Origin: Prevotella sp. MGM1
GTDB taxonomy: Bacteria; Bacteroidota; Bacteroidia; Bacteroidales; Bacteroidaceae
Assembly: GCF_002933775.1 (NCBI RefSeq)
Contig: NZ_BEWV01000215.1
Span: forward strand, 1 to 64,000
Direction: 5' to 3'
DNA: 64,000 nt
How positions within the stretch are numbered: the stretch's first letter is position 1; every line of letters starts with the position of its first letter. A program made the translations under genes and the position numbers. Positions 10,114-49,507 of this stretch are shown piece by piece. The notes under the pieces are model-generated. The model was not told the origin of the DNA. It worked only from the letters and a program-made list of their open reading frames with translations, and did no database searches.

Positions 10114-10164
10114 AAATTAAATCCTCCAAACCGACATCATATCTCGGTTTGGAGGATTTAATTT
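10114..10164. terminator. Bidirectional terminator between convergent genes
   Basis: Perfect 21-bp inverted repeat (10114-10134 with 10144-10164) and a 9-nt loop. The stem ends in A/T runs on both sides, so it can terminate the plus-strand calycin/PCMD operon and the minus-strand fdt operon. Confidence 0.9.
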
Positions 10165-10253
10165 TAACATCTGAAAGAAGTTTATTTAAACATAAGAAAA
10201 GGTTTATCTAAAACTCATTGTCATCGCTTCCGGCTATATTGAAAATCATGTCA

Positions 10254-21999: not shown

Positions 22000-23250
22000 A
22001 TGACACATTATAGTATCACTGACAGACGACCGATGACACTGCTCGAACTGAACACCATGCTGCGTTCGGCCATCGAAACGGGCATGCCAGACGAGTATTG
22101 GGTAGAGGCGGAACTGTCGGAAGCAAGAGAATCGCGAGGCCACTGCTACATGGAACTCGTGGAAAAAGACGGCGCCGGCAACACGCCGATAGCACGTGCA
22201 CAGGCCAAATGCTGGCAGAACACGTGGTCGCTGCTCCGTCCATACTTCGAGCGCACCACCGGACAGAGGCTCCGCCCCGGCATGAAAGTGATGCTTAAAG
22301 TATATGCACGCTATCATGAGGCATACGGCTTCTCATGGATTGTGACAGACATCGACCCTACATACACCATCGGCGACATGGCACGCAAGCGGCAGATGAT
22401 TATCGACAGTCTGAAAGCCGCCGGAGTGTTCGACCTTAACAAAGAACTGGCTCTCCCCATGTTCACGCAACGTATAGCCGTAATATCGAGCGAGACGGCT
22501 GCCGGATACGATGATTTCCGCAACCAGCTCACCGACAACGAATATGGCTTCGCATTCTCAGTAACGCTCTTTGACGCAATAATGCAAGGCGAACACGTGG
22601 AGAAAAGCATCATCGCCGCCCTCGACTTGATAAACGGTCGGGCCGAGGATTTCGACTGCGTGGTAATCATCCGGGGCGGCGGAGCCACAAGCGACATGTC
22701 GGGGTTCGACTCGCTCGCACTCGCGGAAAACGTCGCCAACTTCCCCCTTCCGGTAATAACGGGCATCGGGCACGACAGGGACGAAAGCGTGACAGACATG
22801 GTTGCCCACACCAGCGTGAAGACACCGACTGCCGCCGCCGCAATGCTCATCGGCATTTTGAAATCCACGGCAGACACCATCGACAGTTATGGGGAGCGCA
22901 TAGCAAGGGCCACAAGCAACCGGATGGAAACCGAACACATACGCATCGGACGACTGGCGGAACGCATTCCTGCTCTATTCTCAGTGGCAAAGACAAAACG
23001 TGAGGCGTTTCTTGACATGCTCTGGATGCGGATATGCTCGGCACCGAGACACATACTGACCGCCGAGACACACCGGGTCTCAATGTTGGCACAGCGTGCG
23101 CAGGCTCTCGACCCGACCCTGCTGCTCAAGCGCGGCTACAGCATCACCCTTCATAACGGACGTGCCGTAAGAGACGCCAATAAGTTGAAACCCGGTGACG
23201 AGATAGAGACAAGATTTGAAAAAGGAAGTGTGAAAGCGGTAGTGAAGTAA
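22000..23250 (+). CDS. xseA: Exodeoxyribonuclease VII large subunit
   Basis: 416 residues. The N-terminal OB-fold is in the region opening MTLLELNTMLRSAIETGMPD and VEAELSEARESRGHCYMELV. The catalytic domain has AVISSETAAGYDDF, VVIIRGGGATSDMSGFDS and ITGIGHDRDESVTD, where the His-x-Arg-Asp and Gly-Gly-Gly motifs are conserved; a coiled-coil region and the KRGYSITLHNGR end follow. With XseB it degrades single-stranded DNA to oligonucleotides. The length is near that of other Bacteroidales homologues. It is separated from xseB by a 371-bp repeat-filled gap, whereas these two genes are often adjacent. Confidence 0.95.
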   Translation: MTHYSITDRRPMTLLELNTMLRSAIETGMPDEYWVEAELSEARESRGHCYMELVEKDGAGNTPIARAQAKCWQNTWSLLRPYFERTTGQRLRPGMKVMLKVYARYHEAYGFSWIVTDIDPTYTIGDMARKRQMIIDSLKAAGVFDLNKELALPMFTQRIAVISSETAAGYDDFRNQLTDNEYGFAFSVTLFDAIMQGEHVEKSIIAALDLINGRAEDFDCVVIIRGGGATSDMSGFDSLALAENVANFPLPVITGIGHDRDESVTDMVAHTSVKTPTAAAAMLIGILKSTADTIDSYGERIARATSNRMETEHIRIGRLAERIPALFSVAKTKREAFLDMLWMRICSAPRHILTAETHRVSMLAQRAQALDPTLLLKRGYSITLHNGRAVRDANKLKPGDEIETRFEKGSVKAVVK

Positions 23251-23262
23251 TTTTCACGAAAA

Positions 23263-23554
23263 AAGGAAGTGTATTTGAGAAGTTAAAGAAGTTTTTTTTG
23301 AGAAGTTAAAGAAGTATTTTTGAGAAGTTAAAGAAGTTAATGAAGTTAGGAGAAGTTAAAGGACGTATGCTTTGTTATATGTATTTTGAAATGAACATAA
23401 GCCTAAGTAATAATGATTATTCTATAAATAATCTGCAACCGACACGTCTGCACAATCAGGCACACAGTCGGTATTGTCCTTTAACTTCCCCTAACTTCAT
23501 TAACTTCTTTAACTTCTCAAAAATACTTCTTTAACTTCTCAAATACACTTCCTT
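23263..23554. repeat. Large inverted tandem repeat between xseA and xseB
   Basis: The left arm (23263-23364) contains three GAGAAGTTAAAGAAGT units, plus a shortened one, ending AGAAGTTAAAGGAC. The right arm (23476-23554) is its reverse complement, lacking one 23-bp unit and with a single substitution over 77 aligned bases. The loop is 111 nt and holds a weak inner stem (CCGAC with GTCGG). Transcribed RNA would form a very long hairpin. It begins just after the xseA stop, and its first bases (AAAAGGAAGTGT) copy the xseA 3' end at about 23220-23231. I see no transposase or clear target duplication. Confidence 0.85.
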
Positions 23555-23621
23555 ATCTTCTCTATTCCACTTCCTTATCTTCCCAAATCATCATTAAATC
23601 ATAATCAACAAACAATATCCA

Positions 23622-23813
23622 ATGAAAAAAGCGATAAAATACGAAGAAGCGGTGAAAGAGCTCGAAGAGATTGTAAGGCAAATGGAAAGTGACAGGCTCG
23701 ACATCGACGTTATGTCAGACAAACTTAAAAGAGCGCAGGAACTGATTACAATCTGTAAGAGCAAACTTAAAAAGACCGATGAGGAAATAAGAAAAATACT
23801 CGATAAAGAGTAG
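23622..23813 (+). CDS. xseB: Exodeoxyribonuclease VII small subunit
   Basis: 63 residues, the usual small helical-hairpin partner of XseA. The opening KYEEAVKELEEIVRQMESDR and LDIDVMSDKLKRAQELI is the family signature, ending KLKKTDEEIRKILDKE. It binds XseA's coiled coil to form the active nuclease. The start is the first ATG after the repeat block; the gene may be read through from xseA or have its own promoter. It is slightly shorter than the E. coli protein, as is normal in this phylum. Confidence 0.95.
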   Translation: MKKAIKYEEAVKELEEIVRQMESDRLDIDVMSDKLKRAQELITICKSKLKKTDEEIRKILDKE

Positions 23814-48476: not shown

Positions 48477-49421
48477 ATGAAAAAAGTGCTTTTTGCCATA
48501 ATCGCCCTGCTTTTTCCCGTGCTGACAATGGCACAGGAAAGCCGGACCGATTATAATTTCCTGCGGTTGCCCATGAGCGCACACGCTGCCGCACTCGGAG
48601 GCGACAACATAACGATAATAGAAGACGACCCAACACTTATATTCCACAATCCGTCGCTGATAACAGGCGTAAGCGACAAGTCGCTCAACCTGGACTACAT
48701 GACATACATGGAGGGCGTGAGGCTGGCAGGAGCATCGTTCGTAAAGGCAGTGAACGACAAGGCGACATGGGGAGTGTCTGCACAATACATGGACTACGGA
48801 AGCATGAAAGAAACGACACCCGACAACGTGCAGACAGGTACATTCTCGGCAAAAGACATAATGATAGGCGGCTCGTTCGCATACACCCTGACCGACAAAC
48901 TGGCGGGAGGAATAACGGCAAAGGTGATAACATCGACCATAGCAGGATACAACTCGATAGCGATGGGCGTGGATCTGGGACTGAACTACTACATCGAAGA
49001 CCGGGGACTGTCCGTATCGGCCGTGGCGAGAAACCTCGGCGGACAGGTCAAAGCTTTCAACGATGATTTCGAGAGCATCCCGCTCGACATACAACTTGGA
49101 GTGAGCAAGCAGCTCGGCAACGCCCCGCTGCGCATATCCGGCACATTGACAAGACTCAACAGCCGGGAAGGGCGGCTCATCAATCACTTAGTGCTTGGAG
49201 CGGACATCATGCTGTCAGACAACATCTACATTGCCGGAGGATATAATTTCAGGCGCGCCGACGAGATGAAAATCACCGACAGCGAGGGCGAAAGCAGTCA
49301 CGGGGCTGGACTGTCGCTCGGAGCCGGACTGCAACTCGAACGGTTCAAGCTGAACGTTGCCTACGCTAAATACCACGTATCGTCCACATCACTGACGTTC
49401 AACGTGACGTATTCACTATAA
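48477..49421 (+). CDS. porQ: PorQ-like type IX secretion/outer-membrane protein
   Basis: 314 residues. Signal peptide (KKVLFAIIALLFPVLTMAQ), then the PorV/PorQ-type barrel motif FLRLPMSAHAAALGGDN and EDDPTLIFHNPSLI, followed by alternating strands to a terminal FNVTYSL. It resembles PorQ, which helps attach or process cargo of the type IX secretion system. PorQ lies next to cmk in several Bacteroidetes, which supports the assignment. Other T9SS genes are not in the window. Confidence 0.85.
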   Translation: MKKVLFAIIALLFPVLTMAQESRTDYNFLRLPMSAHAAALGGDNITIIEDDPTLIFHNPSLITGVSDKSLNLDYMTYMEGVRLAGASFVKAVNDKATWGVSAQYMDYGSMKETTPDNVQTGTFSAKDIMIGGSFAYTLTDKLAGGITAKVITSTIAGYNSIAMGVDLGLNYYIEDRGLSVSAVARNLGGQVKAFNDDFESIPLDIQLGVSKQLGNAPLRISGTLTRLNSREGRLINHLVLGADIMLSDNIYIAGGYNFRRADEMKITDSEGESSHGAGLSLGAGLQLERFKLNVAYAKYHVSSTSLTFNVTYSL

Positions 49422-49507
49422 GAAAAAATCATCCATCATAAGCAACAAATTCATTCACTACAAGAAACATATTTACTCACTATAAGAAACAAGTTTTTTT
49501 CACTACA
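49407..49507 (+). repeat. Short direct repeats between porQ and cmk
   Basis: The sequence TTCACTATAAGAAA from the porQ stop region recurs as TTCACTACAAGAAACA (about 49454), CTCACTATAAGAAACA (about 49475) and TTCACTACAA (about 49499). The copies fill the 86-bp gap. The first copy includes the porQ stop codon, suggesting local tandem duplication of the gene end. Confidence 0.6.

Follow-up and report, generated by a model that had tools for sequence, protein, structure and literature searches.

The window analysed here is a 64,000-nt stretch of Prevotella sp. MGM1 (positions 1 to 64,000 of contig NZ_BEWV01000215.1, forward strand). Its plus strand carries the genes of the two exonuclease VII subunits, xseA (large subunit, 22000..23250; PF02601, 5.4e-72, and PF13742) upstream and xseB (small subunit, 23622..23813; PF02609, 4.8e-15) downstream, and Pfam thus confirms the neighbors named in the initial annotation. 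The 371 nt between them contain a GAGAAGTTAAAGAAGT-type unit in two arrays of opposite orientation. The left array (23263..23366, plus strand) consists of GAGAAGTTAAAGAAGT(ATTTTT) units with a period of 22-23 nt followed by sub-units of 9-19 nt, and the right array (23476..23590, minus strand) is its inverse, extended beyond the paired part (23476-23554) by two decayed outer units (23547-23590, out to about 23588). Positions 23297-23364 pair with 23476-23543 over 68 bp with a single mismatch (23351/23489), and pairing resumes between 23263-23292 and 23525-23554 after a register shift of 23 nt, which results from an extra 23-nt unit in the left arm. The complementarity had been given as 77 bp; our count is 79 pairs across the right arm (23476-23554), while the inverted pairing itself, the one mismatch, the additional unit in one arm, and the 111-nt separation of the arms all stand as first described.

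The loop between the arms (23365..23475, 111 nt) is bounded by two short motifs read from the sequence, GACGTATG on the left (23362..23369, plus strand) and GACAATAC on the right (23471..23478, read on the minus strand), the latter lying inside GGTATTGTCCTTTAACTTC. An open frame of 64 amino acids (23340-23534) spans the loop and matched no Pfam family. The array hairpin between xseA and xseB is not a product of chance: at up to three mismatches the window contains 13 matches to the unit, 10 of them in the xseA-xseB gap, against 0.34 expected per window, and the predicted fold of the 371-nt gap reaches -152.1 kcal/mol (z = -21.0), with none of 100 shuffled sequences as good. Its stem, 79 bp long and A+T-rich, is not the short G+C-rich stem with a T run of an intrinsic terminator; the scan found no terminator-like site in 23100-23700 and, around the hairpin, one promoter-like site against 1.1 expected. 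The Rfam search gave one sub-threshold match to a plant miRNA (22.1 bits, gathering threshold 75), which we took as chance. Two further tandem arrays with a period of about 22 nt are found elsewhere in the window, at 10161-10212 and 49411-49492.

In relatives, the two genes lie much closer together. We compared 73 named xseA loci, 67 labelled Prevotella, Prevotellaceae, Hoylesella, or Leyella and six labelled Bacteroidales or Bacteroidaceae. Among the 66 in which both genes were present, the median gap was 20.5 nt (a median that includes a value of 1,383 nt for L113, which is a parsing failure), 61 gaps were of 150 nt or less, and 13 pairs of genes overlapped; in all 19 further relatives the gap was 89 nt or less. 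The very long hairpin parts xseA from xseB, as had been proposed, and, considering a gap of 371 nt here against a median of 20.5 nt and 13 overlaps among the 66 relatives, it is plausible that it would uncouple one gene from the other. The nearest relative found (G164), with an XseA 80.5% identical, has a 46-nt gap without any array, which points to an insertion, the two sequences being too diverged for its exact ends to be placed.

The initial annotation had derived the arms from the 3' end of xseA by local duplication. The copy it noticed does exist, as a 13-nt match (AAAAAGGAAGTGT) between the xseA end (23219-23231) and positions 23260-23272, but RGGAAGTG is also how the outer unit of the arm itself reads. 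The origin proposed for it is unsupported, since GAAGTTAA-type arrays recur at 12 places elsewhere in the draft genome (225 contigs, 2.95 Mb), one of them around a gene that is described below. These places are either inside contigs (C121, C162, C180, C203, C209, and C211) or at contig ends (C24, C76, C99, C213, C224, and C225), and 6 of the 13 array places stop no more than about 35 nt short of the end of their contig, as would be expected for multi-copy palindromes in a short-read draft. The xseA-xseB array sits inside an 80-kb contig, and the same architecture is present in other species, so an assembly artifact is an unlikely source of its arms. In relatives, a search of which had been suggested together with that of the genome, TATTGTCCTTTAACTTC was found in 4 of 100 genus genomes, the window's own genome counted. 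The persistence of a long, unstable inverted repeat had been regarded as notable; the window arms are one of several such pairs in the genome.

At one of these places (C203), the arms frame a complete gene for a 23S rRNA intervening-sequence protein (IVP; PF05635, 118 bits), a four-helix-bundle protein. The C203 arms are 49 nt long and inverted, ending 1 nt before the ATG and at the stop codon, and the gene is the only IVP gene found in this draft. In the C203, C209, and C180 pairs, GGTATTGTCCTTTAACTTC (0-2 mismatches) is present at each inner end; it occurs once at C121, and the window pair has it at its right inner end exactly as in the IVP-bearing C203. The site group that includes C203 comprises 13 loci, among which several different units are represented. 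Small hairpin modules of the GAAGTTATCGC...GCG type were seen by eye within arms beside the inner end, with copies at L064, L066, L068, and L070 (all in G058) and at C121, C24, and C225 of the window's own genome.

IVP genes are frequent in these bacteria. PF05635 was detected in 215 of 249 genus genomes at E ≤ 1e-5 (202 above the curated cut-off) and in 147 of 198 phylum genomes at E ≤ 1e-10. The flanks of IVP open reading frames (ORFs), picked by profile, were compared by aligning the upstream 300 nt with the downstream 300 nt in reverse complement, a score of at least 28 counting as a pass. The Prevotella set comprised 111 unique ORFs (118 before the removal of duplicates), namely, C203, L061, 30 loci of the genus search, 58 of the 60 additional stretches drawn from its list, and 21 loci contributed by ten genomes; it includes a few weak matches (L257, L261, and L262 among them), and weak IVPs are under-sampled in it. 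The inverted match was at least 28 in 82 of the 111, with 29 scoring lower, compared with 8 of 111 in direct orientation, 186 of 3000 mismatched pairs of left and right flanks, and only 1 of 282 control ORFs other than IVP genes. The match was weaker across the wider Bacteroidota, where 12 of 30 loci passed and 18 scored below 28 (direct orientation, 2 of 30; mismatched pairs, 18 of 870). Short arrays are also found apart from IVP genes in Prevotella junctions.

The array unit, read by eye at most but not all loci, varies with the IVP subfamily. Around the "type B" IVPs, proteins with F(E/Q)NI-AWQKAH, the units are GAAGTTAAAG or GGAGTTAAAG, and around other subfamilies they are AGTTGACAAG, AAGTTTTT, GGTTATAC, GAGAGGTGA, TTGAGCG, and others; they are mostly of 7-10 nt, against 22 nt in the window. 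At non-orthologous sites, the similarity of the arrays tracks the identity of the IVPs, with a Mantel r of 0.503 against a null maximum of 0.116 in 300 permutations (5183 pairs from 106 of the 111 loci). At shared sites whose IVPs are less than 60% identical, arms resembled each other more within a locus than between loci in 206 of 211 pairs (from 40 loci), which indicates that the two arms change together. One chromosomal site is occupied by 22 IVP loci (e.g., L149, L151, L157, L162, L166, and L181) from different species and of several subfamilies, each with its own unit, reflecting either repeated replacement or a rapid concerted turnover of both arms.

The inner ends of the arms are also characteristic. 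Of 41 type-B IVP ORFs, 21 have on both sides a motif class composed of [AG]GAC[AG] plus four bases, and none has it on both sides in the wrong orientation; of 70 other IVP ORFs, a single one has it on both sides. The window copy carries this type-B inner-boundary motif at both of its ends, as GACGTATG and GACAATAC. Regarding their surroundings, both neighbors were co-directional with the IVP gene in 40 of 47 site groups, compared with 92 of 216 baseline ORFs taken from the xseA loci. With one IVP as the query, none was found in phage records.

Plasmids allowed occupied and empty sites to be compared. IVP genes were found in 28 plasmid records (22 from cyanobacteria), and the flank test was applied to 12 cyanobacterial plasmids (of 15 first listed). 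Inverted flanks scored at least 28 in 6 of the 12, four of them at least 46, against a 95th percentile of 29 and a maximum of 55 for mismatched pairs, so that two of the six passes (29 and 30) are at about that percentile; in L434 the direct repeat was stronger than the inverted one. Control ORFs on four of these plasmids passed in 7 of 116 cases. The plasmids of Trichormus variabilis 0441 and Nostoc linckia NIES-25 are 99.1% identical over 972 nt of flanks and differ by one insert of 428 bp made up of an array, an IVP gene, and a second array, with GTAAT at both ends of the insert and once in the empty site. Five further records gave a two-piece match like this pair, and a clear 5-bp duplication was seen at the one site only. 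In the plasmids of Nostoc C052 and ATCC 53789, differing array-IVP-array inserts flank the same gene (protein WP_104899637.1), one located before it and the other after it, so that each plasmid is the empty site of the other; the first of these two reciprocal sites is also empty in another C052 plasmid.

A further junction (L435, L452, and L454) was found in three states, as array-IVP-array in Nostoc edaphicum, as a gap of 260 nt holding two arrays in inverted orientation, without any IVP match, in ATCC 53789, and as a 52-nt gap without arrays in C057. Separately, a copy on C052 pE has lost most of its IVP gene. At the level of sequence comparison, these plasmids demonstrate that arrays and IVP gene insert as a unit and that the gene-less form can occupy a junction that elsewhere bears the gene. 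The close pairs are all cyanobacterial, and no equally close occupied and empty pair was found in Prevotella. CRISPR operons on cyanobacterial plasmids also hold IVP genes, in the orders cas6-IVP-cas4 (L434 and L438) and cas10-IVP-cmr3 (L429). These may be guests of the junctions rather than CRISPR components; the available part of a CRISPR survey names IVP in a figure legend (PMC10910872).

The window copy most likely belongs with other gene-less ones. No remnant of an IVP gene was detectable in its loop, where the similarity to the start of the C203 IVP was equalled by 59 of 200 shuffles, and a decayed IVP gene was consequently discarded as an identity for this loop; for the loops of C209, C180, C121, and L066, between 10 and 192 of 200 shuffles were as good. 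Within the genus, GAAGTTAAAGAAGTTAA is present in 71 of 248 genomes and is very unevenly distributed, G079 being the richest with 96 copies. Of the 29 places read in this genome, 12 (L346, L350, L362, L370, L394-L396, L398, L399, L401, L407, and L409) share a core of 52-53 nt, six of them identically, in both orientations and with arms of varying length. By eye, the ends of this core (GACAAT... and ...CATACGTC) match those of the window copy. Similar cores were seen by eye in G080 (L379 and L381). The G079 IVPs looked at, two out of five, have units that differ from those of the gene-less copies, which weakens any claim that a cognate IVP moved the latter. At the xseA-xseB junction itself, inverted arrays are found in Prevotella conceptionensis (L106, 285 nt) and Hoylesella loescheii (L137, 284 nt), in gaps of about 285 nt that are too short for an IVP gene plus arms. 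Their TTGAGTTTATGAGTT-type unit differs from that of the window, indicating either that this junction is a repeated target or that an old element has had its unit turned over.

Considering all of the above, we assign a probability of roughly 0.8 to the xseA-xseB feature belonging, as a gene-less and MITE-like copy, to a family of IVP insertion elements rather than being a local duplication of xseA. The gene-bearing form of this family is most likely an inverted short-tandem array, an IVP/S23 four-helix-bundle gene (PF05635), and a second array in inverse orientation. Such an element would be widespread, apparently unrecognized, and inserted between adjacent genes in distantly related bacteria. 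The window copy has the traits of a MITE, since it is gene-less, has inverted ends, and exists in multiple copies, and its arms and inner ends suggest that it most likely descends from a gene-bearing copy.

Three other explanations are improbable to different degrees. The least improbable of them is that the feature is a MITE derived from some unrelated DNA transposon, with the arms as its terminal repeats and the IVP genes as passengers. Gene-less copies with inverted ends and a conserved core would be expected from it, as would the GTAAT duplication at one cyanobacterial site; however, IVP is the only gene seen in those inserts for which an empty site served as comparison, the units change from one IVP subfamily to another, and the arms consist of tandem arrays whose length varies. 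We consider slightly less probable a host regulatory hairpin (an attenuator, a processing site, or an mRNA stabilizer) that arose at this junction and adjusts xseB relative to xseA. The location between two subunits of one enzyme, the very stable predicted helix, and the other-unit inverted arrays at the same junction in L106 and L137 fit this idea. Against it, the relatives have short gaps (150 nt or less in 61 of 66, 89 nt or less in 19 of 19 more, and 46 nt in the nearest), the window unit and inner ends recur at unrelated sites, there is no terminator-like site, and the arms of the family show no preference for G-U pairs. Least probable of all is a simple repeat seeded by the xseA end and grown locally by slippage and template switching without any mobile element, which would account for the 13-nt match, the unequal number of units in the arms, and the short tandem arrays of other Prevotella junctions, but not for the shared non-repetitive inner ends, the 52-53-nt core kept at 12 G079 sites, the inserts with known empty sites on cyanobacterial plasmids, or the correlation of the unit with the IVP protein sequence at non-orthologous sites.

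If the insertion-element reading is correct, the element would have entered the short xseA-xseB junction as one unit, arms plus core. Its arms could then lengthen by slippage, with exchange between them keeping them alike. A read-through transcript would form a hairpin of about 79 bp and might then be cut by RNase III, as in 23S rRNA intervening sequences. This processing would separate the message of xseA from that of xseB at small cost, making the guest nearly neutral. The G-U wobble test, carried out on the 94 of 141 IVP loci that scored at least 28, speaks against selection on a sense-RNA helix, as it came out the opposite way, with 139 A-C against 75 G-U arm mismatches on the IVP-sense strand (22 against 8 by site group). 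The A-C excess may reflect A-rich sequence before start codons. An A-C bias on the IVP-sense strand equals G-T on the other strand. As a further and less supported step, the IVP protein might act on its cognate arms and be needed for spread, possibly together with a reverse transcriptase. Avd, a relative of IVP, works alongside a reverse transcriptase in diversity-generating retroelements.

More broadly, we propose tentatively, and at somewhat less than even odds, that IVP/S23 genes with their cognate arrays form a class of transposase-free mobile elements residing in the operon junctions of Bacteroidota and Cyanobacteria. The IVP would recognize its own array and drive either movement or the homogenization of the arms, the 23S rRNA intervening sequences would be an rRNA-borne branch, and the unexplained heptamer arrays, with their inverted pairs, known from Nostoc, Xanthomonas, and Beggiatoaceae would, like the window hairpin, be gene-less offspring. 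The closest solved IVP structure is 2gsc (XCC0516), which, judging from the XCC tag, presumably comes from Xanthomonas. Two old puzzles, the origin of the IVP-bearing intervening sequences and the maker of the intergenic heptamer arrays, may be one, and both become testable if the IVP genes and the arrays prove to form a single element. A guest in the junction may also be a plain reason for the presence of IVP genes in CRISPR and other operons. We found no description of a link between IVP genes and inverted arrays in the literature searched, which left out most subscription journals.

Several known systems resemble these elements in part. MITEs and REPINs are short, gene-less, dispersed sequences with inverted ends and variable loops; unlike them, the elements described here have arms that are tandem arrays of variable length. 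Another dispersed Prevotella repeat without coding sequence is PINSR, of the Prevotella intermedia group, which in the available part of its description is said by its authors to lack terminal inverted repeats, unlike the window element (PMC4755523). Avd of diversity-generating retroelements belongs to a protein family related to IVP, according to the portion of the source available (PMC10053308), but the resident IVP matches the Avd model (NF033474) weakly, with 29.2 bits against a cut-off of 80.

The heptamer arrays share with our elements their short tandem units and intergenic location. They have been described as GGGAATC in Xanthomonas, where two genomes hold 70 and 75 inverted pairs, and as GGGGA(C/T)T in Nostoc/Anabaena, where there are few inverted pairs in the genome studied and the heptamer is absent from its plasmids; the parts of that study drawn on here report no general link to mobile elements (PMC4692102). 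TAACTGA arrays are known from Beggiatoaceae, Cyanobacteria, and Bacteroidetes, with no evident mechanism of spread in the corresponding sections of the source (PMC4679880). Neither "S23" nor "four helix" appears in the main texts of these two papers (PMC4692102 and PMC4679880). A close parallel is found in the 23S rRNA intervening sequences of Coxiella and others, in which an ORF of the IVP family lies within complementary ends that form a long stem and for which cutting by RNase III has been reported; in the excerpts available, they are called a selfish element, transposition or a mobile-element origin is among the hypotheses, and their function and origin are stated to be unclear (PMC4990558). 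Like them, the window feature has complementary ends that form a long predicted stem, but it lies between xseA and xseB and lacks an IVP ORF, and the family to which it probably belongs differs from them in residing in the junctions of protein-coding genes and in having tandem arrays as arms that change with the IVP subfamily.
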